In this document: piece by piece, positions 4,540 to 49,877 of the stretch
Position numbering within the stretch: position 1 is the stretch's first letter
Layout of the letters: each line of letters begins with the position of its first letter
From: Tautonia marina
GTDB taxonomy: Bacteria > Planctomycetota > Planctomycetia > Isosphaerales > Isosphaeraceae
Assembly (NCBI RefSeq): GCF_009177065.1
Contig: NZ_WEZF01000015.1
Coordinates: forward strand, 1-64,000
Direction: 5' to 3'
DNA: 64,000 nt
Notes under the pieces: generated by a model
What the model was told of the DNA's origin: nothing
The model's input: the letters and a program-made list of their open reading frames with translations, nothing else
Database searches by the model: none
Position numbers and translations under genes: made by a program

Positions 4540-5511
4540 ATGCGAGCGCTGATTTCCGGCATCACCGGCTTTGTCGGCGGCCATCTGGCCGAGCACTTGC
4601 TGGACCAAGGGGACGCGGTCGTCGGCCTGTCGGCCTCGGGACGATGGCCGGACTCGACCGCCCATCTGGCCGAGGCCGTCCGGCTCGAAACGTTCGACCT
4701 GCTGGCCGACTCGGTCGGCTCGCTCGCCCGGATGCTGACCCGGAAGCGTCCGGAGGCGATCTACCACCTGGCCGCGCAGGCCAATCCGCACGCCAGCTTC
4801 GACGACCCGAGGGCGACCTGGGACCTGAACCTCGGCGGCACCCTCACCTTGCTCGAAGCGATCCGGCAGGCCGAACTGGACGAGAAGCCCCGGGTCGTGC
4901 TGGTCGGGTCTGGCGTCTCCTACGGCAACCCGAGCCCCGAGGATCTGCCCGTCACCGAACGCTGCCCCTTGCGGCCGAACAACCCTTACGCGGCGAGCAA
5001 GGCGGCGGCCGACCTGCTCGGCATCCAGCACTGGCTGGCGCACGGCACGCCGGTGGTGATCGCTCGGCCGTTCAACCATGCCGGGCCGAGGCAGGAAGAC
5101 CGCTACGTCCTGAGCAGCTTCGCCCGCCAGGTGGCCGAGGTCGAGCGCGGCGATCGCCCTCGGATCGAGGTCGGCAACCTTCAGGTCGTCCGTGACTTCA
5201 CCGACGTCCGCGACATCGTCCGCGCCTATCGCCTGCTGGCCGAATCGGGCCGACCGGGCGAGGTGTACAACATCGGCACCGGCCGCAACGAGTCGCTCGC
5301 CCACTTGCTCGACATCCTTCGAGGGCTGGCCGATCGGCCGGTTGAGGTGGTGGTCGATCCCGCTCGCGTTCGGCCGGTTGATCAGCCCTTGCTCCTGGCA
5401 GACGCCTCGAAGCTCCACGCCGATACCGGCTGGGAACCGCGCTGGACCAGTGAGCAGACGCTGGCCGATATGCTCAACTTCTGGCGATCCCACCTTCCGG
5501 CCCCGGCCTGA
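4540..5511 (+). CDS. NAD-dependent epimerase/dehydratase, GDP-6-deoxy-mannose reductase-like
   Basis: A 323-residue extended short-chain dehydrogenase. The Rossmann motif GITGFVGGHL is at residues 7-16, and the catalytic Ser124 (GSGVSYG), Tyr150 and Lys154 (YAASK) are all present. RPFNHAGPRQ at 176-185 resembles GDP-4-dehydro-6-deoxy-D-mannose reductases, which make GDP-rhamnose; other nucleotide-sugar reductases are possible. The ATG at 4540 follows GAGGGGAGAA at a good distance; the open frame extends upstream to 4453 but that stretch lacks family similarity. Likely supplies a deoxysugar for surface glycans; glycosyltransferases lie at 16-19 kb. Confidence 0.85.
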   Translation: MRALISGITGFVGGHLAEHLLDQGDAVVGLSASGRWPDSTAHLAEAVRLETFDLLADSVGSLARMLTRKRPEAIYHLAAQANPHASFDDPRATWDLNLGGTLTLLEAIRQAELDEKPRVVLVGSGVSYGNPSPEDLPVTERCPLRPNNPYAASKAAADLLGIQHWLAHGTPVVIARPFNHAGPRQEDRYVLSSFARQVAEVERGDRPRIEVGNLQVVRDFTDVRDIVRAYRLLAESGRPGEVYNIGTGRNESLAHLLDILRGLADRPVEVVVDPARVRPVDQPLLLADASKLHADTGWEPRWTSEQTLADMLNFWRSHLPAPA

Positions 5512-5653
5512 CGCCCCGAGCCATCAGGCGACATCTCCCCTCCCTCCGAACCGAAAAAAGGTTGCAAGAATCTCCCGGATCGAGCGAATAAGCATTCCTG
5601 GACATCAACGATCACACCGTCGCCAGGTGCGGACACGATCCCGAGGGAGGCCG

Positions 5654-6160
5654 ATGGCAATGAAGGCTGACTTGTCGACCGATGATGATGTGATGGGTCA
5701 GAAGCCGGGGGCTCTGGGGGGCGGCAGCGGCCGGTCGTTCGCTCGGGGGCTGGCGCTGGGGCTCGCAATCGGGGGGCTTTGCACCTGGTTCGTCTTCCGA
5801 CCCTCGAACGAGACGGCAACCGCGGTGATTGCTCCCGTCGAGCGTCCGAACTCGCCCGTGACTCGCGAGACCTACACAAAGATCAGGCCGGGGATGTCCT
5901 CCTGGGAGGTCCACGACATGCTCGGCTCGGGCGAGGTGATCGGCGAGCAGGGGATGATCGTTGACGAGAACGGTCAGTACCGGAAGTGGGAGAATCTCGG
6001 CCGGCGCGTGTCGAACTCCTCGGGAACCGTCTCCGACCACGACGGCCAGCCGCGCGAGGACGTGCGCAGGACCGTCCGGTGGTCGAACGGCAAGCGAATG
6101 ATCACGGTGGTCTTCCATAACGACTCGGTCGTCGAGAAGATCGAGGAGAACCTTTACTGA
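5654..6160 (+). CDS. Membrane-anchored BamE/SmpA-OmlA-like protein
   Basis: A 168-residue protein with one transmembrane segment at about residues 29-47 (FARGLALGLAIGGLCTWFVF) and an outside domain. TYTKIRPGMSSWEVHDMLG is the pattern of the SmpA/OmlA/BamE fold (Y..I..GM....V..lLG). It lacks the lipobox cysteine of true BamE, so it is probably a structural relative held in the inner membrane rather than a BAM-complex subunit. GGGAGG just upstream supports the ATG at 5654. A longer frame from 5192 overlaps the epimerase gene and is not a real start. Confidence 0.65.
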   Translation: MAMKADLSTDDDVMGQKPGALGGGSGRSFARGLALGLAIGGLCTWFVFRPSNETATAVIAPVERPNSPVTRETYTKIRPGMSSWEVHDMLGSGEVIGEQGMIVDENGQYRKWENLGRRVSNSSGTVSDHDGQPREDVRRTVRWSNGKRMITVVFHNDSVVEKIEENLY

Positions 6161-6269
6161 GCCAGCCATTTCCCGGCGGCCGAGCCGTTGGAGCGGCGGT
6201 TGAGTTTGGGCCTTTGGGCCACTTCCGTGCTGGTGTGTTCTGGGGATCATTCCCCGGCCGAGTCTGCTC

Positions 6270-7673
6270 ATGATCCTCAACCCATTCCGACGACAACCGC
6301 TTCGATCCCGCCGATCGGTCGGCCTGGTCGGCCTCTTTTACAGTGGCAAGACGGTCCTATTGACCTCTTTGATAGCGCACCTGCGCAATCATGATCCTGA
6401 CCGTTTTCCCCTTGGGTCCGGACCCGATGCGCCCGAGATGACCCTGCTGGGCGAACTCCCCCCTGCCCTTTGCGTCGAGCGGTTCGACGTCGACGACCAC
6501 TACAACCGCCTGATCGACTCCGACTGGCCCGCCAAGACCGACCGCCTGAACGAGTACCGGGCCGAGCTGGTCGTTGGGAAAGGGAGCTGGTGGACGACTG
6601 ACCTGTCGCTCGTCGATCTGCCGGGCGAACGCCTGGCGGACATGGTGATCGCCTCGCACCCCACCTTCGACGCCTGGAGCGATGCCGTACTGGGTGTCTT
6701 GCGCAACGAGGCCGAGTTTGCCCGCATCGCCCGGCCATACCTTGAAACGGCCGAGCGGCCCGGCGCGACCGAGCCCGACATCCTGGCCGCCTACCGAACC
6801 GTGCTGGCCACCTTGCACACGCGGTTCATGCCGTTCATCTCGCCGTCAAGCTTCGTGCTCGACCCCGAAGGCGTCTCGCTCGACGCGAAGCTCGGCCCCG
6901 ACCGCCCGGCGACCGAGGCCGATTGGATTGCCTTGAAGGCCGATCGCGGCATGTGCGGGCTGGCTCGGTCGGAGGAATTCGCCCCGCTGCCCCCGGCGGT
7001 TCGGGAGCGATCCCCCGCCCTGGCATCGACCTTTGCCGGGCGGTACGCCCGCTATCGCGAGGCAGTTGTCTTGCCGTTCGCCAACGCCTTGAGTCGGTGC
7101 GATGATCTGGTGGTGCTGGTTGATGTGACGGTCCTGCTCGAAGGCGGGCACGGGATGGTCAACGCCTATCGGGCGTTCCTGGAACAGGTGCTGGCCGCCG
7201 TCGATCCAGGGTTCACCCCCGCGCAGCAGGTCGTGGACTGGGGGCTGTGGACCCTGTCTCTGTTTCAAGCGAAGTATGCTCATGTGCGTCGAATTGTGTT
7301 CGTTGCCACCAAGGCCGATCGGGTGGTCCGGGACGACCGCGACCGGCTGCTCGACCTCCTGACGCAACTGACCCGGCCGATCATCCGGCCGCACCAGGCG
7401 AGAAAGCATCTGACGGTGGAGCACCTGATCGTTGCGGCCGTCCACTCCACCTGGACCCAGCCGGGCGACCCGGCCGATACGCTCCGCTACAACTCGCCGA
7501 AGGGGGAGGTGCAGGCCACCGTCTCGCGGCTCCCGGACCAGTGGCCCGACCACTTCGAGCCGGGCCGCTTCCGGTTCCCTCGGCCTGAGCCTTCGTTGCC
7601 TCGTGCTCGGGTGCGGGTGCCTCCTCAGATCAATCTCGATCGGTTGACGCGGTTTTTGCTTGATCTGAAATAA
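6270..7673 (+). CDS. YcjX-like P-loop GTPase (DUF463)
   Basis: A 467-residue protein of the YcjX (DUF463) family of stress-linked P-loop NTPases with unknown cellular role. The Walker A motif GLFYSGKT is at residues 21-28, DLPGE (G3/Walker B) at 116-120 and ATKAD (G4, guanine specificity) near residue 347. The SGKT loop lying close to the N-terminus is typical of the family. The next gene, 58 bp downstream on the same strand, is a YcjF-like membrane protein, the same order as the ycjX-ycjF pair of Enterobacteria, so the two probably act together at the inner membrane. Confidence 0.85.
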   Translation: MILNPFRRQPLRSRRSVGLVGLFYSGKTVLLTSLIAHLRNHDPDRFPLGSGPDAPEMTLLGELPPALCVERFDVDDHYNRLIDSDWPAKTDRLNEYRAELVVGKGSWWTTDLSLVDLPGERLADMVIASHPTFDAWSDAVLGVLRNEAEFARIARPYLETAERPGATEPDILAAYRTVLATLHTRFMPFISPSSFVLDPEGVSLDAKLGPDRPATEADWIALKADRGMCGLARSEEFAPLPPAVRERSPALASTFAGRYARYREAVVLPFANALSRCDDLVVLVDVTVLLEGGHGMVNAYRAFLEQVLAAVDPGFTPAQQVVDWGLWTLSLFQAKYAHVRRIVFVATKADRVVRDDRDRLLDLLTQLTRPIIRPHQARKHLTVEHLIVAAVHSTWTQPGDPADTLRYNSPKGEVQATVSRLPDQWPDHFEPGRFRFPRPEPSLPRARVRVPPQINLDRLTRFLLDLK

Positions 7674-7731
7674 GACATTCTGAATCGAATCAAAGGATGA
7701 GATTGTCTCCTCTCTTGAGAAGGAGCCCGCC

Positions 7732-8901
7732 ATGAGTCATCCCTCGGGCTACGGCCCATCCTCCGGGATTCCCGGCGGCGAGGAGCAGGAGCGCGGACCC
7801 GGCCCTGCGCCCGAGACGCGGTCGGAGCCGACCTCCACACCGACCCCCGAGCTGGAACCCGCCAGGGAGCGGCGTTCGCGCCCGGTTGACTCGGGCATTC
7901 CGGTTCCCGTGCTCGATGAGTCGAGGGTCGGCCCGCCCCGGATGTTCCTCGAAGATCTGCCGCCAATCGACGACGATGAGCCGATCCTTGAGGAACGCGA
8001 TCGCCCCTGGGTGGATCGCGGGACCGGGGCCTTGATCGTCGTGCTGGTGACGGCGGTGCTCCTGCTGGTCGTGGCCTCGCAGGCGGCGAGCTTCCTGGCG
8101 GCGCTGGCGGTCTGGCCGCCGGTGGTGCAGGCGATTGGCTACGGGGTGGCGGCGGTTTTGGTGGGAATGTTTGCCATCGCGGCAGTCGGCCTGATCTGGA
8201 AGTACTTCACGCTGCCGATCTCGCCGGGGGTGCGGGTCGATCGGGCCGATTCGCTGAGTCATCGCCGGTCGGTCCAGGCTCAGGCCCGCCGCAATCGGGC
8301 AATCGCCAAGCGTCAGTTGCTCACATTTCTGGAAGGCTATCCGACCGACCCTCGCCACACGCGCGTTCTGGTGTCGATTGCCGGACCCGAAGCGGCCCAA
8401 CGATTGCTCATTCAGCGGACCCGCCTGCTCTCGCACGACGCGGCGACCGATGACGACTGGGTCCGCGAGTTCGAGGCCCGCTTCCTCGAACCGCTGGACG
8501 AGATGGCCCGAACGCTCGTGAAACGCCAGGCCGTGGCCGTCGGGGTGAAGACGGCGATTGTGCCGAGCGGATTCCTGGATGGGTTGATCGTGGTCGCCAA
8601 CGCTTATCAACTAATCGGCAGTCTTTGCCGGCTCTACCACCTGCGGGCCGACAACTGGTCGACCATCAAGATCACCGCACACGTCTTCGGCAACACGTTT
8701 GTCGCCGCCCGCCTGGAGGAATTCACCGACCAGGCCGCCGACGCCTCGTTCGATCAGATGCACGACCTGATCCACAGCCAGGTTGCCCGAGGCGTGCTCT
8801 CTCGTCTCTCGTCCGGCGTGACCCAGGGGACGGTCAACGGCTTGCTCCTGCGCCGGTTTGGCCGCTACGCGATCCGGGCCTTGCGGCCGATCCGGGGGTG
8901 A
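7732..8901 (+). CDS. YcjF-like membrane protein (DUF697)
   Basis: A 389-residue protein. Residues 1-95 are proline- and charge-rich and predicted disordered. Two hydrophobic segments follow at about 100-120 and 128-157, as in YcjF. The C-terminal part from about residue 260 (VKTAIVPSGFLDGLIVVANAYQLI and onward) matches the DUF697 region, rich in glycine and small residues. AAGGAGCCC precedes the ATG. It is coupled with the upstream YcjX-like GTPase. Confidence 0.8.
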   Translation: MSHPSGYGPSSGIPGGEEQERGPGPAPETRSEPTSTPTPELEPARERRSRPVDSGIPVPVLDESRVGPPRMFLEDLPPIDDDEPILEERDRPWVDRGTGALIVVLVTAVLLLVVASQAASFLAALAVWPPVVQAIGYGVAAVLVGMFAIAAVGLIWKYFTLPISPGVRVDRADSLSHRRSVQAQARRNRAIAKRQLLTFLEGYPTDPRHTRVLVSIAGPEAAQRLLIQRTRLLSHDAATDDDWVREFEARFLEPLDEMARTLVKRQAVAVGVKTAIVPSGFLDGLIVVANAYQLIGSLCRLYHLRADNWSTIKITAHVFGNTFVAARLEEFTDQAADASFDQMHDLIHSQVARGVLSRLSSGVTQGTVNGLLLRRFGRYAIRALRPIRG

Positions 8902-8998
8902 GTGGTGCGGGGCGATTCTCCTGGATTTGCCCGTAATCGAGTCATTTCGATCCAATGAATCAACGGTCGAATTCGGTTTGTGCGACGAGGGTCGACAG

Positions 8999-9238
8999 AT
9001 GGCACACTTGACGACGATCTCGGGGACCTATCGCGATGGTGTGATCGAGCTATCGGAACGTCCGGCCGGAGTCTCGGCAGGGGCTCGGGTGCTGGTGACG
9101 TTCCTGGACGAGGCCTCAATCGCTCCCGAGGAACGCGAAGCCCTGCGTCAGGAAGCCTTTGCCGACATGAGGCGGGGGATTGATCTGGGGGGGGCTCCCT
9201 ACCCGACCCGGGAGGAACTGAATGAGCGGAACCGATGA
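8999..9238 (+). CDS. AF2212/DUF104-like antitoxin
   Basis: A 79-residue protein starting MAHLTTISGTYRDGVIEL and ending in a charged tail. The pattern (short strand, G.Y.dGVIeL, then G.RVLVTFL) is that of AF2212-like/DUF104 antitoxins that accompany PIN toxins. Its 3' end overlaps the start of the next gene by 17 nt, which is usual for toxin-antitoxin pairs. A longer frame exists from 8858, but the ATG at 8999 matches the family N-terminus. Confidence 0.7.
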   Translation: MAHLTTISGTYRDGVIELSERPAGVSAGARVLVTFLDEASIAPEEREALRQEAFADMRRGIDLGGAPYPTREELNERNR

Positions 9239-9674
9239 CCCTGCACCGGTGATGGTTGATACCAATGTGGTTGTTTACGCGTATGATCCAAGTGACCTCG
9301 CGAAGCACAACCAGGCCATTGAACTTCTCGCGGCACTTTCGGAGCAAGGACGACTGATGATGAGTGCCCAGGTGTTCAACGAGTTCAGTAATGTCTTGAT
9401 GAGCCGACGCCGGGAGCAGCCGCTGGCCCCGCCTGAAGTTCCAACGATCCTGAGGCGGTTGCTGATGATTGGAAAGGTCGTGCCCTTGACCGCCTCGATG
9501 ACGCTCCGTGCCCCCGACGCCATCCCCCGGCATGGCTTCTCGTTCTGGGATGCCCTGGTCTGGGCTGCCGCCAAGGAGCACGGCGCAACGGTTCTCTCCA
9601 CCGAGGACTTCCAGCATGGCCGGCAGATCGAAGGGGTTCGCATCGTCCACCCGTTCGAGGTGTTCCCGGCCTGA
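9222..9674 (+). CDS. PIN-domain ribonuclease, VapC-like toxin
   Basis: A 150-residue PIN-domain protein. The four acidic residues expected to bind the metal ion are visible: Asp13 in MVDTNVVVYAYD, Glu54 in FNEF, Asp110 in FWDALVWAAA and Asp129 in STEDF. The family cleaves RNA, often tRNA or rRNA; the target cannot be read from the sequence. It overlaps the antitoxin gene by 17 nt and ends 17 nt before a convergent gene. Confidence 0.82.
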   Translation: MSGTDDPAPVMVDTNVVVYAYDPSDLAKHNQAIELLAALSEQGRLMMSAQVFNEFSNVLMSRRREQPLAPPEVPTILRRLLMIGKVVPLTASMTLRAPDAIPRHGFSFWDALVWAAAKEHGATVLSTEDFQHGRQIEGVRIVHPFEVFPA

Positions 9675-9691
9675 GGTCGGGGCTTGCCGGG

Positions 9692-10294
9692 TCAGGGGTT
9701 CGGCTCGGGCGTGTCTTCGTCCTCGGTATCCTCTCGGTCTTCGTCCTCGGTATCCTCTCGGTCTTCGTCCTCGGTATCTGGGTCCTCGGCGTCGTCGTTC
9801 CCGGGATCATCCGGGAGGAAGGTGATGGACCGGAGCTTGTAGGGGTCGAGAATCAACGGGCCGAGGTTCGTGGTCATCTTCAAGGGGGCGAACAGGTGGA
9901 GCGGTCCGGCAAGTTCCTCGCCCGATTTGGCGACGACCGCGCCGGGGACCGTCATGGTCCAGACGCCGCTCACCACCATCACGTTCATGTTCATGGAAGG
10001 ATTCCCCTCCGGGATGTCGAAGCGGAGGGCGCGGAGCTTCTCCGGGGGGATCTCGTAGCGGCCGAAGTCGCTGTCGATGGCAATGGGGCCGAGTCGAAGC
10101 GGGCCGGACACGCGCTTGCCGGTTGACGATTCGACCTCGACCATCCGTTCCGAAAGTTCCGGGGGCTCCTGGCCCTGCATCATGCCGCCGCCCAACGGCC
10201 CGAGGCCCCCGCCGCCGAACTGGGCCGAGGCGATCCCGGGCAGGAAGGCCAGGGTCATGACTGCGCACAAGGGCCGCAAGTTCGATGGAATCAT
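9692..10294 (-). CDS. Secreted protein with acidic repeat tail, unknown function
   Basis: A 200-residue protein with a clear signal peptide (residues 1-24, ending GIASA before QFGGGGLGPLGGG). The middle part is a predicted beta-rich domain that I do not recognise. The C-terminal 40 residues are almost all acidic and consist of repeats of DTEDEDRE encoded by 24-bp direct repeats. GAGGA lies 7 nt before the ATG. Probably periplasmic or exported; the acidic tail could bind cations (inference). Confidence 0.7.
   Translation of the reverse strand: MIPSNLRPLCAVMTLAFLPGIASAQFGGGGLGPLGGGMMQGQEPPELSERMVEVESSTGKRVSGPLRLGPIAIDSDFGRYEIPPEKLRALRFDIPEGNPSMNMNVMVVSGVWTMTVPGAVVAKSGEELAGPLHLFAPLKMTTNLGPLILDPYKLRSITFLPDDPGNDDAEDPDTEDEDREDTEDEDREDTEDEDTPEPNP
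9714..9778. repeat. 24-bp tandem repeat, about 2.7 copies
   Basis: The 24-bp unit TCTTCGTCCTCGGTATCCTC plus TCGG repeats exactly at 9714-9737 and 9738-9761, with a partial third copy to 9778. It lies within the minus-strand gene and encodes DTEDEDRE in frame, so copy number can change without a frameshift. Confidence 0.92.
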
Positions 10295-10359
10295 CGGAGC
10301 ATCCTCGACAGAACGGGAGGATTGAACAATCGACGTGAACGGCTCGATGCCGAAGCGTC

Positions 10360-10389
10360 ACTGTACCGAGGGCGGTAACCCTGCATCAA
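10360..10389 (-). promoter_or_regulatory. Candidate promoter for the secreted acidic-tail protein
   Basis: On the minus strand TTGATG (10389-10384) and TACAGT (10365-10360) are 18 bp apart, giving a leader of about 60 nt to the ATG at 10294. The gap 10295-10646 otherwise holds only a purine-rich stretch before the divergent gene at 10647. Confidence 0.4.
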
Positions 10390-10646
10390 TTCATTTCTCT
10401 CCGATGACGTGATCTGGGAATCAAGATGGAGCGCCGCAGATGGGCTTGGCTCGGAAGAATCCGCGCAATCCGAAGAATCATTCAATTCGGACGAGGGAGC
10501 GGGCCGAAGATCCGAGATGAGCCGGACCCCTTGCCGGGCGTCTGCCTTCGGAGATCGAAGCCGAAGGGGAACACCCAAATCGGCGCGGCGGGTGAGGGGT
10601 CGGGAAGGGCTTGGGGCACGGACAGGCCGGAAGCGGGGTGCTTCGG

Positions 10647-12470
10647 ATGACTGCGATCGGATGGAAGCGAGGCGGGGCGGTCGTCGGGCGTCCGGGCAAG
10701 GCGGCTCGCAGGAAGACGGCGCTGGTCGGAGCGATCGAATCGCTGGAGCCTCGGGTCGTGATGGCGACGTTCATGGTGACGAGCGCCGCCGATACCGGGC
10801 CGGGGACGCTCCGGGATGCGATTGAGCAGGCGAACCGGGTGCCTCGTGAGGCGCACATCATTAACATTGCGCCGGAAGTTCCGGGGCCGATTGTCCTCAA
10901 CAGCGCCTTGCCGAGCTTGATCGGTGAGGTCGAGCTGGCCGGTCCCGAGGGGTCGCAGGTGGCGATTGTCCGAAGCAGCGTACCGGAGACGCCGGAATTC
11001 CGGCTCCTGACCGTCGGCGAGACGGCCACGGTGACGGTCAAGCACCTGGCGTTCTCGGGCGGTCAGGCGCAGTTCGGCGGCGGCATCCTGAACGATGGGG
11101 AACTGAACCTGCTGTTCAGCGACGTTTCGGGGAACGTGGCCGGAGCGAAGGGAGGGGGAATCTACAACACGGGGGTTCTCTCGATCGGCTCGTCGTCCAT
11201 CCGGGACAATGTGGCCGCGGGGGAGCGGACGATCGGCCTCGGCCCGGCTGGGATCGGCCGAGGAGGAGCGATCTTCAACGCGAACAGCCTGACGCTTTCG
11301 ACCAGCTCGGTGACCGGAAATTCCACGAACCGAGAAGGGGGAGCGATCTGGAACTCGGGCTGGACGAGCATCAACACGAGCCTCCTGGCCGAGAACTCGG
11401 CCGAGGCCTTCGTGCTGGCTCCCGGCCGGGTGCCGATCGGCCGCGGTGGGGCAGTGTATAACACCTCCATCCTTCACATCAACGGCAGCACCCTGACCGA
11501 CAACCTCGCCAATCAGCAAGGGGGAGCCGTCTACAGCAACGTCACGCGCCCCCGGATCGAGCCGTCGTCGATCACCTCGTCGATCGTCGCCGACAATGTC
11601 GTGGATGACGTGTTTGTGCGGTTCGGGCCGTTCGAGTTCAAGGGGCCGAATCTGGTCGGCAAGGTTTCGGGGAAGACGACCGGCGCGGTTTCGATGCCGG
11701 GTGTCGATCCGATGCTGGGGCCGCTCGGGCTGTACGGCGGTTCGCTGCTGGTCCGCCCTCCCTTGCCGGGGAGCCCGGCCATTGGGGCGGGACTCTACAA
11801 CGCGGCCTTCCAGACCGACCTGCGAGGGACCGCCCGCTCGGCCGAGTCGACCGACCTGGGAGCCGTCGAGTCGATCCCCTTTTCCCTGCTCGTCGAGTCG
11901 GGAAGCGGCCAGGAGGCGATGCCGGGCCAACCCTTCACCGCGCCGCTCGTCGTGCGACTCGCTTCCGACGTTGGGGGATCGCTCGAAGGGGGCCAGGTTG
12001 TCTTCCGGGCACCCGCGGAAGGGGCTTCGGCGGTGCTGGTCGGGAACCCGGCGCGGGTCAATACCGAGGGGGTTGCCCAGGTGCAGGCCATCGCCAACGG
12101 CATCCCGGGGACGTATGAGGTGATCGTCGAATCGGCCGGGGCCAAGGAACCGGTGATTGTCACGCTCACCAATGGGGGGACGGAGCCGGATCTCGGTGAG
12201 AGGATCGCGGCGGTGGTGGACCCTGAGCCGATCGTAGCCGCCGCTCGACAGGCGGTAGACGACCTGAGAACGGCCCTGCCGAGACCGTCTCGGGTGGCTC
12301 CGGCCGTGCAGGATCGGGCGGCGGCCCTGGGACGAGCGCTCCGGCAGTCGGTCGAATCATCGAGCGAGTCGGGGCGATCGTTGCATCCGGCGATCGCTCG
12401 GGTGCTTGATCAGATCCGGGAGCGGAACGGATCGAGCAGCAGGCCGGGCACGCCGATCTCGACGACCTGA
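10647..12470 (+). CDS. Exported parallel beta-helix protein with LEPR-like motif and choice-of-anchor Q region
   Basis: A 607-residue protein. The N-terminus is basic and carries ESLEPRVVMATF, close to the LEPR-XLL motif at the start of many planctomycete exported proteins. Residues about 50-330 form repeats of GG.i.N.g.l...s....N, the polymorphic outer-membrane-protein type of right-handed beta-helix. GPLGLYGGS, LPGSPAIGAG and DLRGTARS...DLGAVE (about 365-415) match the 'choice-of-anchor Q' signature. A final beta domain and an alanine/arginine-rich tail follow. Probably cell-surface. The start is uncertain: ATG 10647, with an in-frame alternative at 10611. Its 3' end overlaps the convergent nnrE by 61 bp. 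Confidence 0.75.
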   Translation: MTAIGWKRGGAVVGRPGKAARRKTALVGAIESLEPRVVMATFMVTSAADTGPGTLRDAIEQANRVPREAHIINIAPEVPGPIVLNSALPSLIGEVELAGPEGSQVAIVRSSVPETPEFRLLTVGETATVTVKHLAFSGGQAQFGGGILNDGELNLLFSDVSGNVAGAKGGGIYNTGVLSIGSSSIRDNVAAGERTIGLGPAGIGRGGAIFNANSLTLSTSSVTGNSTNREGGAIWNSGWTSINTSLLAENSAEAFVLAPGRVPIGRGGAVYNTSILHINGSTLTDNLANQQGGAVYSNVTRPRIEPSSITSSIVADNVVDDVFVRFGPFEFKGPNLVGKVSGKTTGAVSMPGVDPMLGPLGLYGGSLLVRPPLPGSPAIGAGLYNAAFQTDLRGTARSAESTDLGAVESIPFSLLVESGSGQEAMPGQPFTAPLVVRLASDVGGSLEGGQVVFRAPAEGASAVLVGNPARVNTEGVAQVQAIANGIPGTYEVIVESAGAKEPVIVTLTNGGTEPDLGERIAAVVDPEPIVAAARQAVDDLRTALPRPSRVAPAVQDRAAALGRALRQSVESSSESGRSLHPAIARVLDQIRERNGSSSRPGTPISTT

Positions 12471-47438: not shown

Positions 47439-49877
47439 TCACGAGGGGGCCGACCAGCCGCCTCCCCAGCCGTCGTAAAGGTGCTGAAGCAGTGTTTCCC
47501 ACTGCTCTCGGGTCCGGAACTTCGGGAACGGCTCGGGGCGGATCGGCTCTCCCGAGCTGTTGACGAGATGGAACCGTCCTTGCTCGTCGAGCCGGGCAAT
47601 CCTCGACGTCTTCCAGAGGTGCTGGGAGACCGGATCAACCTTCACCCGGTCTCCGGGGGCCTCCAGTTCAATCGACCCCAGCGCCGATCGCACGGCCGAT
47701 ACGTCGGTCTGCCCGGCCTCCTCGACCGCCCTGGCCCAGATCAGGACCCCGACGTAGGCCGCTTCGATCGGATCGCTTGTCACCCGCTGCGGCCCGTAAC
47801 GGTCGCGGAACCGCTCGATGAACGCGCGGTTCTCGGGCCGATCGACGCTCATGAAGTAGGTCCAGGCCGCGTAGTCGCCGGCCATCTCGTCCAGGCCGAG
47901 TCGGCGGATCTCCGGTTCGGCAATGCTGAACGACAGCGTCGGAATCTCCTGCGACGCGATTCCGGCCTTTCTCAGGTCGCGGAAGAACGCGACGTTGCCG
48001 TCGCCGTTGATCGTGTTCAGGATCACATCCGGCCGCTCGGTCTTGATCCGATCGACGATCCCCACGAAATCCACGCTGGTCAACGGCTGGAACGCTTCGC
48101 CGACCAGCTCGCCGCCGATCGCCTCGATCTGGTCGTGGATCAATGCGCCGGCGGCCCTTGGAAAGATGTAATCGCTGCCGACATGGAAGAATCGTCGGCC
48201 CAGCTCCACAAACGCCCACTTCACCGCGGGCAGAATCTGCTGGTTCGGCGCCGAGCCGAGATAGACGATGTTCGGCGACTGCTCCAACCCTTCGTACTGA
48301 ACCGGGTAGAACAGCAAGCCATCGAGCTGCTCAACCACCGGTTTGACCGCCTTCCGGGCCGCCGAGGTCCAGCAGCCAAAGATTACCTCAACCCCCTCCT
48401 CCTCGATCAACCGCCTGGCCTCGCCCGCGAAGACGTCCGGACTCGACCGACCATCGACCACCACCGGCTCGACGGGCCTGCCCAGCACTCCCCCGGCGGC
48501 GTTGAGCTCGTTGATGGCCAGCAAGGTCCCGTCGACCACCCCCGAGGCGCTCTCGGCCATCACCCCCGACAGCGAGTGCAAGACCCCGACCCGAATCGGC
48601 GGACCCGACGCCACCACCGGCGCGATTGCCTCCTCCGAGGCGGTCGAACCCTCTCCGATGGCCCGATCGCCCGGTCCCCTCGGCTCGCGATCCGCGCCGA
48701 TCGTGCTCGACCAGAGTTGATGCAAGCCGTATCCGGCCGCCACCGCCAGGCCGACCCCCAACGCCCCTCGGCGTGTCCATTGGGCTCTGTTCGGTGATTC
48801 CCCCGTCGTCAGTCCCGGGCCCGAGCCCGACGCTGCCGGCACCGCCTCGATCGCCTCGATGCCTGGTTCGGTCGGGCTCGACGGGAGTCTGAACACCGCC
48901 TCGGCACTCAGGGTCGGCGGCAAGTCCGGAGCCGGTCGGGCCCCGGCGAGCAGGGTGAGCAGATCCTGCCGCATCGCCTCGGCATCGGCGTAGCGATCGC
49001 CCGGCTGCTTGGCCATTGCCCGGGCGATGATTGCCGAGCAGCCTTCGGGAAGGTCGGGCACGACCTCCCTCGGGTCCGGAGCTGGTTTGTAGCAGTGGGC
49101 GAACATCACTTTCGGGGCCGAGGTCGAATCGGCATACGGACCCTGGCCGGTCAGCAAGCCGTAGTAGGTCGCCCCGAGCGAGTAAAGATCGGTTCTCGCG
49201 TCGATCGGCTCCGACTGGCATTGCTCGGGGCTCATATAGGCCGGGGTCCCCACCACGCGGCCGGTTCGGGTCAGTTGGTGGGCTCCCAGCTCGTCGGAGA
49301 GCTTGGCCAGGCCGAAGTCGGTAATCTTGACCGCGCCGTCGCGGTTCAAGAGCAGGTTGGCGGGCTTGATGTCACGGTGGATCAAGCCCGCCCGATGCGC
49401 CGCCTCCAGGCCGAGGCATGCCTGGGCGACCAGCGCGGTGGCCTCTCGCCAGGGCATTGGCCCGGCCTCCATCGCCTCGGCGAGGCTCCGGCCGTTGACC
49501 TGCTCCATCACCAGAAACGGTTTGCCGTCGTGCCGGCCGACCTCGAAAATCGCCACCACGTTCGGATGATGCAACCGCGCGGCCGATCGCGCCTCTTGCA
49601 AGAACCGCTCGGCCGCGACCGGATCGGTCGCCAAACCTTCGGGCAAGAGCTTCAGCGCCGTCGGTCGGCCGAGCTGCGTGTCCTCGGCGTCGTAAACGAC
49701 CCCCATCCCGCCGCGACCCAGCACGCCGACAATCCGGTGATTGCCCAGCATCGTCCCTGGAGGCAGATCCTGAGCCGTCCAGGCCGGCTCCTCGTGGCCG
49801 ACCGTCTCGTCCAGCGACCCTGTCCAGGGCAGTCGGCGGGTCGGATCGTCCGGGTTCACGCTCTGAGAATCACTCAC
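47439..49877 (-). CDS. Ser/Thr protein kinase fused to UrtA-like (urea/amide) ligand-binding domain
   Basis: An 812-residue predicted receptor kinase. Residues about 48-310 form a Hanks-type kinase: GRGGMGVVYDAED loop, Lys76, HRDIKPANLLL (168-178), DFG (187-189) and GTPAYMSPEQ. A linker leads to one membrane segment (about 370-390, GALGVGLAVAAGYGLHQLW). Residues about 415-805 outside the membrane match UrtA, the urea ABC-transporter binding protein: VGVLHSLSGVMAESASGVVD, FGCWTSAARKAVKPV, FYPVQYEGLE, NQQILPAVKWA and VGSDYIFPRAAG. No urea permease genes are nearby. GTG 49877 (SDSQSVNPDD) is preferred; TTG 49904 is an in-frame alternative. Confidence 0.9.
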   Translation of the reverse strand: MSDSQSVNPDDPTRRLPWTGSLDETVGHEEPAWTAQDLPPGTMLGNHRIVGVLGRGGMGVVYDAEDTQLGRPTALKLLPEGLATDPVAAERFLQEARSAARLHHPNVVAIFEVGRHDGKPFLVMEQVNGRSLAEAMEAGPMPWREATALVAQACLGLEAAHRAGLIHRDIKPANLLLNRDGAVKITDFGLAKLSDELGAHQLTRTGRVVGTPAYMSPEQCQSEPIDARTDLYSLGATYYGLLTGQGPYADSTSAPKVMFAHCYKPAPDPREVVPDLPEGCSAIIARAMAKQPGDRYADAEAMRQDLLTLLAGARPAPDLPPTLSAEAVFRLPSSPTEPGIEAIEAVPAASGSGPGLTTGESPNRAQWTRRGALGVGLAVAAGYGLHQLWSSTIGADREPRGPGDRAIGEGSTASEEAIAPVVASGPPIRVGVLHSLSGVMAESASGVVDGTLLAINELNAAGGVLGRPVEPVVVDGRSSPDVFAGEARRLIEEEGVEVIFGCWTSAARKAVKPVVEQLDGLLFYPVQYEGLEQSPNIVYLGSAPNQQILPAVKWAFVELGRRFFHVGSDYIFPRAAGALIHDQIEAIGGELVGEAFQPLTSVDFVGIVDRIKTERPDVILNTINGDGNVAFFRDLRKAGIASQEIPTLSFSIAEPEIRRLGLDEMAGDYAAWTYFMSVDRPENRAFIERFRDRYGPQRVTSDPIEAAYVGVLIWARAVEEAGQTDVSAVRSALGSIELEAPGDRVKVDPVSQHLWKTSRIARLDEQGRFHLVNSSGEPIRPEPFPKFRTREQWETLLQHLYDGWGGGWSAPS

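Follow-up and report, generated by a model that had tools for sequence, protein, structure and literature searches.

The gene at positions 47439..49877 (minus strand) of the window, as we call the whole stretch of 64,000 nucleotides of Tautonia marina DNA that was analysed, encodes in one chain a complete Hanks-type Ser/Thr kinase, a presumed membrane segment and a domain resembling UrtA, the binding protein of the UrtABCDE urea transporter. Its product is probably a receptor Ser/Thr kinase of the cell membrane, whose ligand outside the cell would be urea or a closely similar short amide and whose kinase domain would lie in the cytoplasm. This had been proposed in the initial annotation, and it is supported by the pocket residues aligned with those of UrtA, by the match to the solved urea-binding protein 8tg1 and by the predicted topology. 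For most receptor kinases of this type we know of no signal. The UrtA-like sensor gives the Hanks receptor kinases a candidate ligand that can be tested, with a ligand prediction that is ready residue by residue and repeated in 43 distinct sequences, and a related family offers a candidate output, the yeaG-yeaH-spoVR module.

The receptor kinase gene (P0001) is read from a GTG start at 49877 as a single open frame of 812 codons (812 aa) with zero internal stops, and this start is backed by relatives that have a common N-terminal DPTR-like motif. Relatives with 46-52% identity match over the full length, and the fusion is thus real, an assembly artefact being ruled out. The open reading frame, Pfam and NCBIfam matches agree on the three-part chain described initially, and all the sequence motifs that had been quoted for it (LHSLSGVMAES, YPVQYEGLE, NGDGNVAFF and EAAYVGVLIW among them) are found in it.

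The kinase domain (residues 50-305; 48963..49730, minus strand) matches Pfam Pkinase with an E value of 8e-45, its AlphaFold pLDDT is mostly above 85, and the PknB/Stk1 family is its top kinase-family match. The motif GRGGMG, K76, the HRD aspartate D169, the DFG aspartate D187 and the SPE motif are all intact, and in the alignment the K, E, HRD, N, DFG-D and APE-E positions are retained in 73/73 fused receptors. By these sequence features (glycine loop, VAIK Lys, HRD, DFG and APE Glu) it is a member of the Hanks-type Ser/Thr kinases.

Residues 428-788 (47514..48596, minus strand) form the predicted UrtA-like urea-binding sensor domain, which matches Pfam Peripla_BP_5 over family positions 1-361 of 363 (E 1e-144). 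The resemblance to UrtA had been said to run along the whole domain, and so it does (positions 1-360 of 361 of the NCBIfam UrtA family TIGR03407), though the score, 450.4 bits, is below the curated cut-off of 492.75. UrtA has been solved with urea and its pocket, made of W120, S122, Y141, Q144, E146, Y190, F192, N246 and S274, has been mutated; all four diverse homologues tested bound urea (PMC10392092). The sequence of that structure served as reference for an alignment of the window domain with 72 more domains from fusions and 37 from stand-alone proteins. The window protein was identical to the UrtA pocket (WSYQEYFNS) at 9/9 positions, with W503 and S505 (UrtA W120, S122; 48363..48371), Y524, Q527 and E529 (UrtA Y141, Q144, E146; 48291..48308), Y570 and F572 (UrtA Y190, F192; 48162..48170), N624 (UrtA N246; 48006..48008) and S651 (UrtA S274; 47925..47927), all on the minus strand. 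The initial annotation had staked its reading beforehand on the conservation of this ligand pocket, and all nine residues are present in the sensor.

The exact urea pocket recurs in 43/73 fused receptors, across many genera, and the pocket is changed in 30/73. Within the window's family, one fused receptor (L044, 8001-10493) has proline for the glutamine, as in AmiC, and another (L045, 8019-10439) has lost several of the residues; the ligand is thus not fixed across the family, and that of these two receptors may have changed. A further fused relative with lost pocket residues is L234. The comparison of the predicted sensor structure with UrtA, proposed initially as a check, gave as top PDB fold match a urea-binding protein, the periplasmic 8tg1 of Caldicellulosiruptor (52% identity), followed by three UrtA-urea complexes and then by AmiC. 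The AlphaFold model of the sensor domain was built from only nine sequences and has a mean pLDDT of 72; as parts of its pocket region are of low confidence, it is the alignment that underlies what we say of the pocket. We call the sensor UrtA-like and do not file it as UrtA because, though it has the pocket, it lacks both a TIGR03407 score over the cut-off and the UrtB permease.

The kinase and the sensor are separated by a presumed membrane-spanning segment, GALGVGLAVAAGYGLHQLW (residues 371-389; 48711..48767, minus strand), which is preceded by WTRR. Its mean Kyte-Doolittle hydropathy, 1.05, is the second weakest among the 73 receptors, 64 of which have a mean of at least 1.6 at the interdomain segment. 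Over the 73 receptors, the 15 residues flanking the segment towards the kinase have a mean net charge of +2.75, as against 0 on the sensor side. Residues 364-392 form one 29-residue helix in the full-length AlphaFold model, whose overall confidence is low (pTM 0.44). A single segment flanked by positive charge towards the kinase would put the kinase and the sensor on opposite sides of the membrane, as had been proposed initially; the copy in the window is weak, and its receptor topology is likely by conservation among the relatives. The stretch at 48711-48780, in which WTRR is followed by a weakly hydrophobic, Gly/Ala-rich sequence, resembles a mid-chain twin-arginine signal. A WTRR-like pattern precedes the segment in 26/73 receptors, and positive charge on the inside explains this pattern just as well as a twin-arginine motif.

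Fusions of this kind had been said to occur elsewhere in the planctomycetes, and they are indeed widespread there. A profile made from seven fused proteins and run over 398 genomes of the class detected the fusion in ten families, in about 71 genomes altogether, and 73 distinct fused receptors, some of them in tandem, were extracted. The window's family has it in 3 of 45 genomes only (that of the window, G004 and G005). Two changes among 113 rows suffice for the fused state on the sensor tree, versus about 33 in shuffles, and seven are needed on the kinase tree, versus 47 in shuffles. The seven changes leave room for kinase-domain exchange or repeated fusion, and it may be that one or the other has occasionally occurred in the history of these receptors. 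A scan of genome contigs with the fused alignment returned kinase matches only, and in a plasmid collection zero records covered 80% of the query. Nine contigs of a viral collection (L238-L246) encode UrtA-like urea-binding proteins, with about 40-44% identity, and these genes may be phage-borne or stem from contamination by host DNA. Databases name kinase/binding-protein fusions of other kinds, and in the literature searched we found no paper describing the fusion of a kinase with a UrtA-like sensor.

The initial annotation had also stated that the window has neither a permease nor a urease gene, and this is correct. In the whole genome UrtB likewise gave no match, but two urease alpha genes are present on other contigs (C19 and C3). 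UrtB was over the cut-off in 0/45 genomes of the window's family and in 1/50 fusion genomes, and with UrtB absent we rejected the idea of a sensor serving a dedicated transporter in trans. Urease is present in 5/71 fusion genomes and in 43/327 others (Fisher p 0.23), and outside the window's family the test of association between receptor and urease gives p 1.0. A role in urea nutrition, for which urease would be expected alongside the receptor, was likewise rejected, no association being found; as urease is missing from most fusion genomes, urea need not be a nutrient there. The neighbours in the window are ribosomal genes and genes for a protein with a TPM domain and a repeat protein resembling squalene cyclases, and none of the genes at about 40.5-57 kb recurs beside other receptors.

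UrtA-like proteins are also found in other signalling systems. The window genome codes for just one more Peripla_BP_5 protein, which is UrtA-like and membrane-anchored. Its gene, on contig C43, overlaps by four bases that of a methyl-accepting chemotaxis protein (MCP), after which come genes for CheW, CheR, CheW, CheA-receiver and CheB (L003, 715-10845, minus strand; MCP, CheR and CheA identified by Pfam, CheW and CheB by eye). This gene order is repeated in many genomes of the window's family, and the cluster is apparently a urea/amide-linked chemosensory operon; as judged by eye, the C43 copy retains the UrtA pocket residues. Among the stand-alone proteins (L010-L033), most chemosensory-linked copies have the pocket WSYAEYWVS or a similar one (Q144 to A, F192 to W, N246 to V), and WSYAEYWVS itself occurs in 10 sequences of the alignment. 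A pocket of this type should, from its residues, be unable to hold urea, and with so many chemosensory-linked copies changed in this way their ligand probably differs. A hybrid histidine kinase gene comes after the UrtA-like one in two further genomes (L050, 4282-9331; L056, 5189-9651). The stand-alone UrtA-like paralogues of the window's family carry N-terminal membrane anchors. One binding protein is thus reused, in related bacteria, by three signalling chemistries, the Ser/Thr kinase, the chemosensory array and the hybrid histidine kinase.

The same architecture could have had its ligand shifted to another small amide, or to a guanidine-like or carbamoyl compound fitting the pocket, which we regard as a rather unlikely alternative. 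The changed pockets in 30 of the fused receptors and in most of the chemosensory-linked paralogues indicate that ligand drift is common in the group, the sensor scores below the UrtA cut-off, the association with urease is lacking both overall and outside the window's family, and urea-type transporters are able to accept other amides (discussed in PMC3098086). The window copy, however, has all nine residues of the UrtA pocket, its closest solved relative is a urea-binding protein, and four of the four diverse homologues bound urea (PMC10392092). The loss of pocket residues in several fused relatives (L045, L234) would also fit a sensor that has become an unliganded or structural module, or a docking site for a protein, in which ligand binding is no longer relevant. 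We give little credence to such a role, given that the exact pocket is kept in 43/73 receptors of many genera and that side chains lining urea would not otherwise be expected to stay fixed.

The low hydropathy of the window segment, on its side, would suit a chain that is wholly cytoplasmic, the segment being a linker, and that senses internal urea or amide as the cytoplasmic AmiC does. This seems to us quite improbable in view of the 64/73 receptors with a clearly more hydrophobic segment at that place, the positive charge on the kinase side, the 29-residue helix of the model and the N-terminal membrane anchors of the stand-alone paralogues in the window's family. We thus retain a membrane receptor for external urea, or a very similar amide, as the best explanation. 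Urea would bind outside the cytoplasmic membrane, between the lobes of the bilobed UrtA-like domain, and would close this domain like a Venus flytrap; the closure would be transmitted through the single membrane helix and would change the pairing or the activity of the cytoplasmic PknB-like kinase (paired or released), which would then phosphorylate cytoplasmic targets. Such a receptor would report an external nitrogen compound and feed no transporter. We infer the binding of urea, its effect on kinase activity and the direction of this effect, as well as an output to the nitrogen-starvation/stress module considered below.

In a related family (f101), receptor genes are inserted into the prkA-DUF444-spoVR operon. 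From one to three copies of the receptor gene are found between DUF444 (yeaH) and spoVR, on their strand, in 11 genomes belonging to three genera (L215-L218, L225-L227, L229, L230, L236 and L237, with the triple tandem in L225; domains confirmed by Pfam), some of these loci stopping short of prkA and L230 ending before DUF444. Of these genomes, 9/11 have the exact urea pocket in one receptor or more. In six f101 genomes in which no receptor was detected, the DUF444-spoVR pair is without insert (L248-L252, L254), and the window genome's own operon (L247, contig C23; PrkA 5447-7624, DUF444 7656-8942, SpoVR 9110-10660) is intact and without receptor. The presence of SpoVR was rejected as a marker of the receptor, as most genomes of the class have SpoVR whether or not they carry the receptor (266/398 class genomes; 51/71 fusion genomes), and hence the position in the operon alone is informative. 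Small conserved proteins of 118 and 158 aa, with no Pfam match, are encoded in or after the receptor-bearing operon (L216, 9255-9611; L218, 10501-10977).

It has been shown that E. coli requires yeaG (prkA) and yeaH (DUF444) for adapting to sustained nitrogen starvation (PMC4664914). The location of the receptor in this operon is thus a suggestive match between input and output, in one lineage only. Urea receptor kinases might signal to the PrkA(YeaG)-DUF444(YeaH)-SpoVR module throughout the class, with PrkA, DUF444 or SpoVR as phosphorylation targets, a generalisation that we consider doubtful. If true, it would mean a direct line from an external nitrogen compound to growth-arrest physiology via Ser/Thr phosphorylation.

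Compared with UrtA of the UrtABCDE transporter (7s6e, 7s6f, 8hic; also 8tg1), the sensor has the same fold throughout its length and an identical nine-residue pocket, but it is fused to a kinase via a membrane segment, falls below the TIGR03407 cut-off and has no UrtB partner. AmiC, the amide sensor of Pseudomonas (1pea), belongs to the same binding-protein family and likewise serves sensing and not transport, but its pocket (YSYPEYYVT versus WSYQEYFNS) differs at five of the nine positions, and it acts on AmiR (1qo0) and not via a kinase. The PknB-type receptor Ser/Thr kinases have the cytoplasmic kinase, the one membrane segment and the external domain that are predicted here, but with PASTA domains in the place of the UrtA-like sensor. 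The YeaG/PrkA-YeaH(DUF444)-SpoVR module has an operon in common with the receptor in 11 genomes of another family, but PrkA is another kind of kinase (AAA_PrkA), and the receptor gene is an addition that the operon lacks in the other genomes examined, that of the window included. Finally, in the GlnH-GlnX-PknG system of the actinobacteria Mycobacterium and Corynebacterium (PMC6069109, PMC9769921), a Ser/Thr kinase is controlled by an external protein that binds a nitrogen compound, as we predict here. There, the binding protein, the membrane relay and the soluble kinase are three separate proteins and the ligand is aspartate, whereas in the window receptor all are in one chain, with a sensor of the UrtA type.
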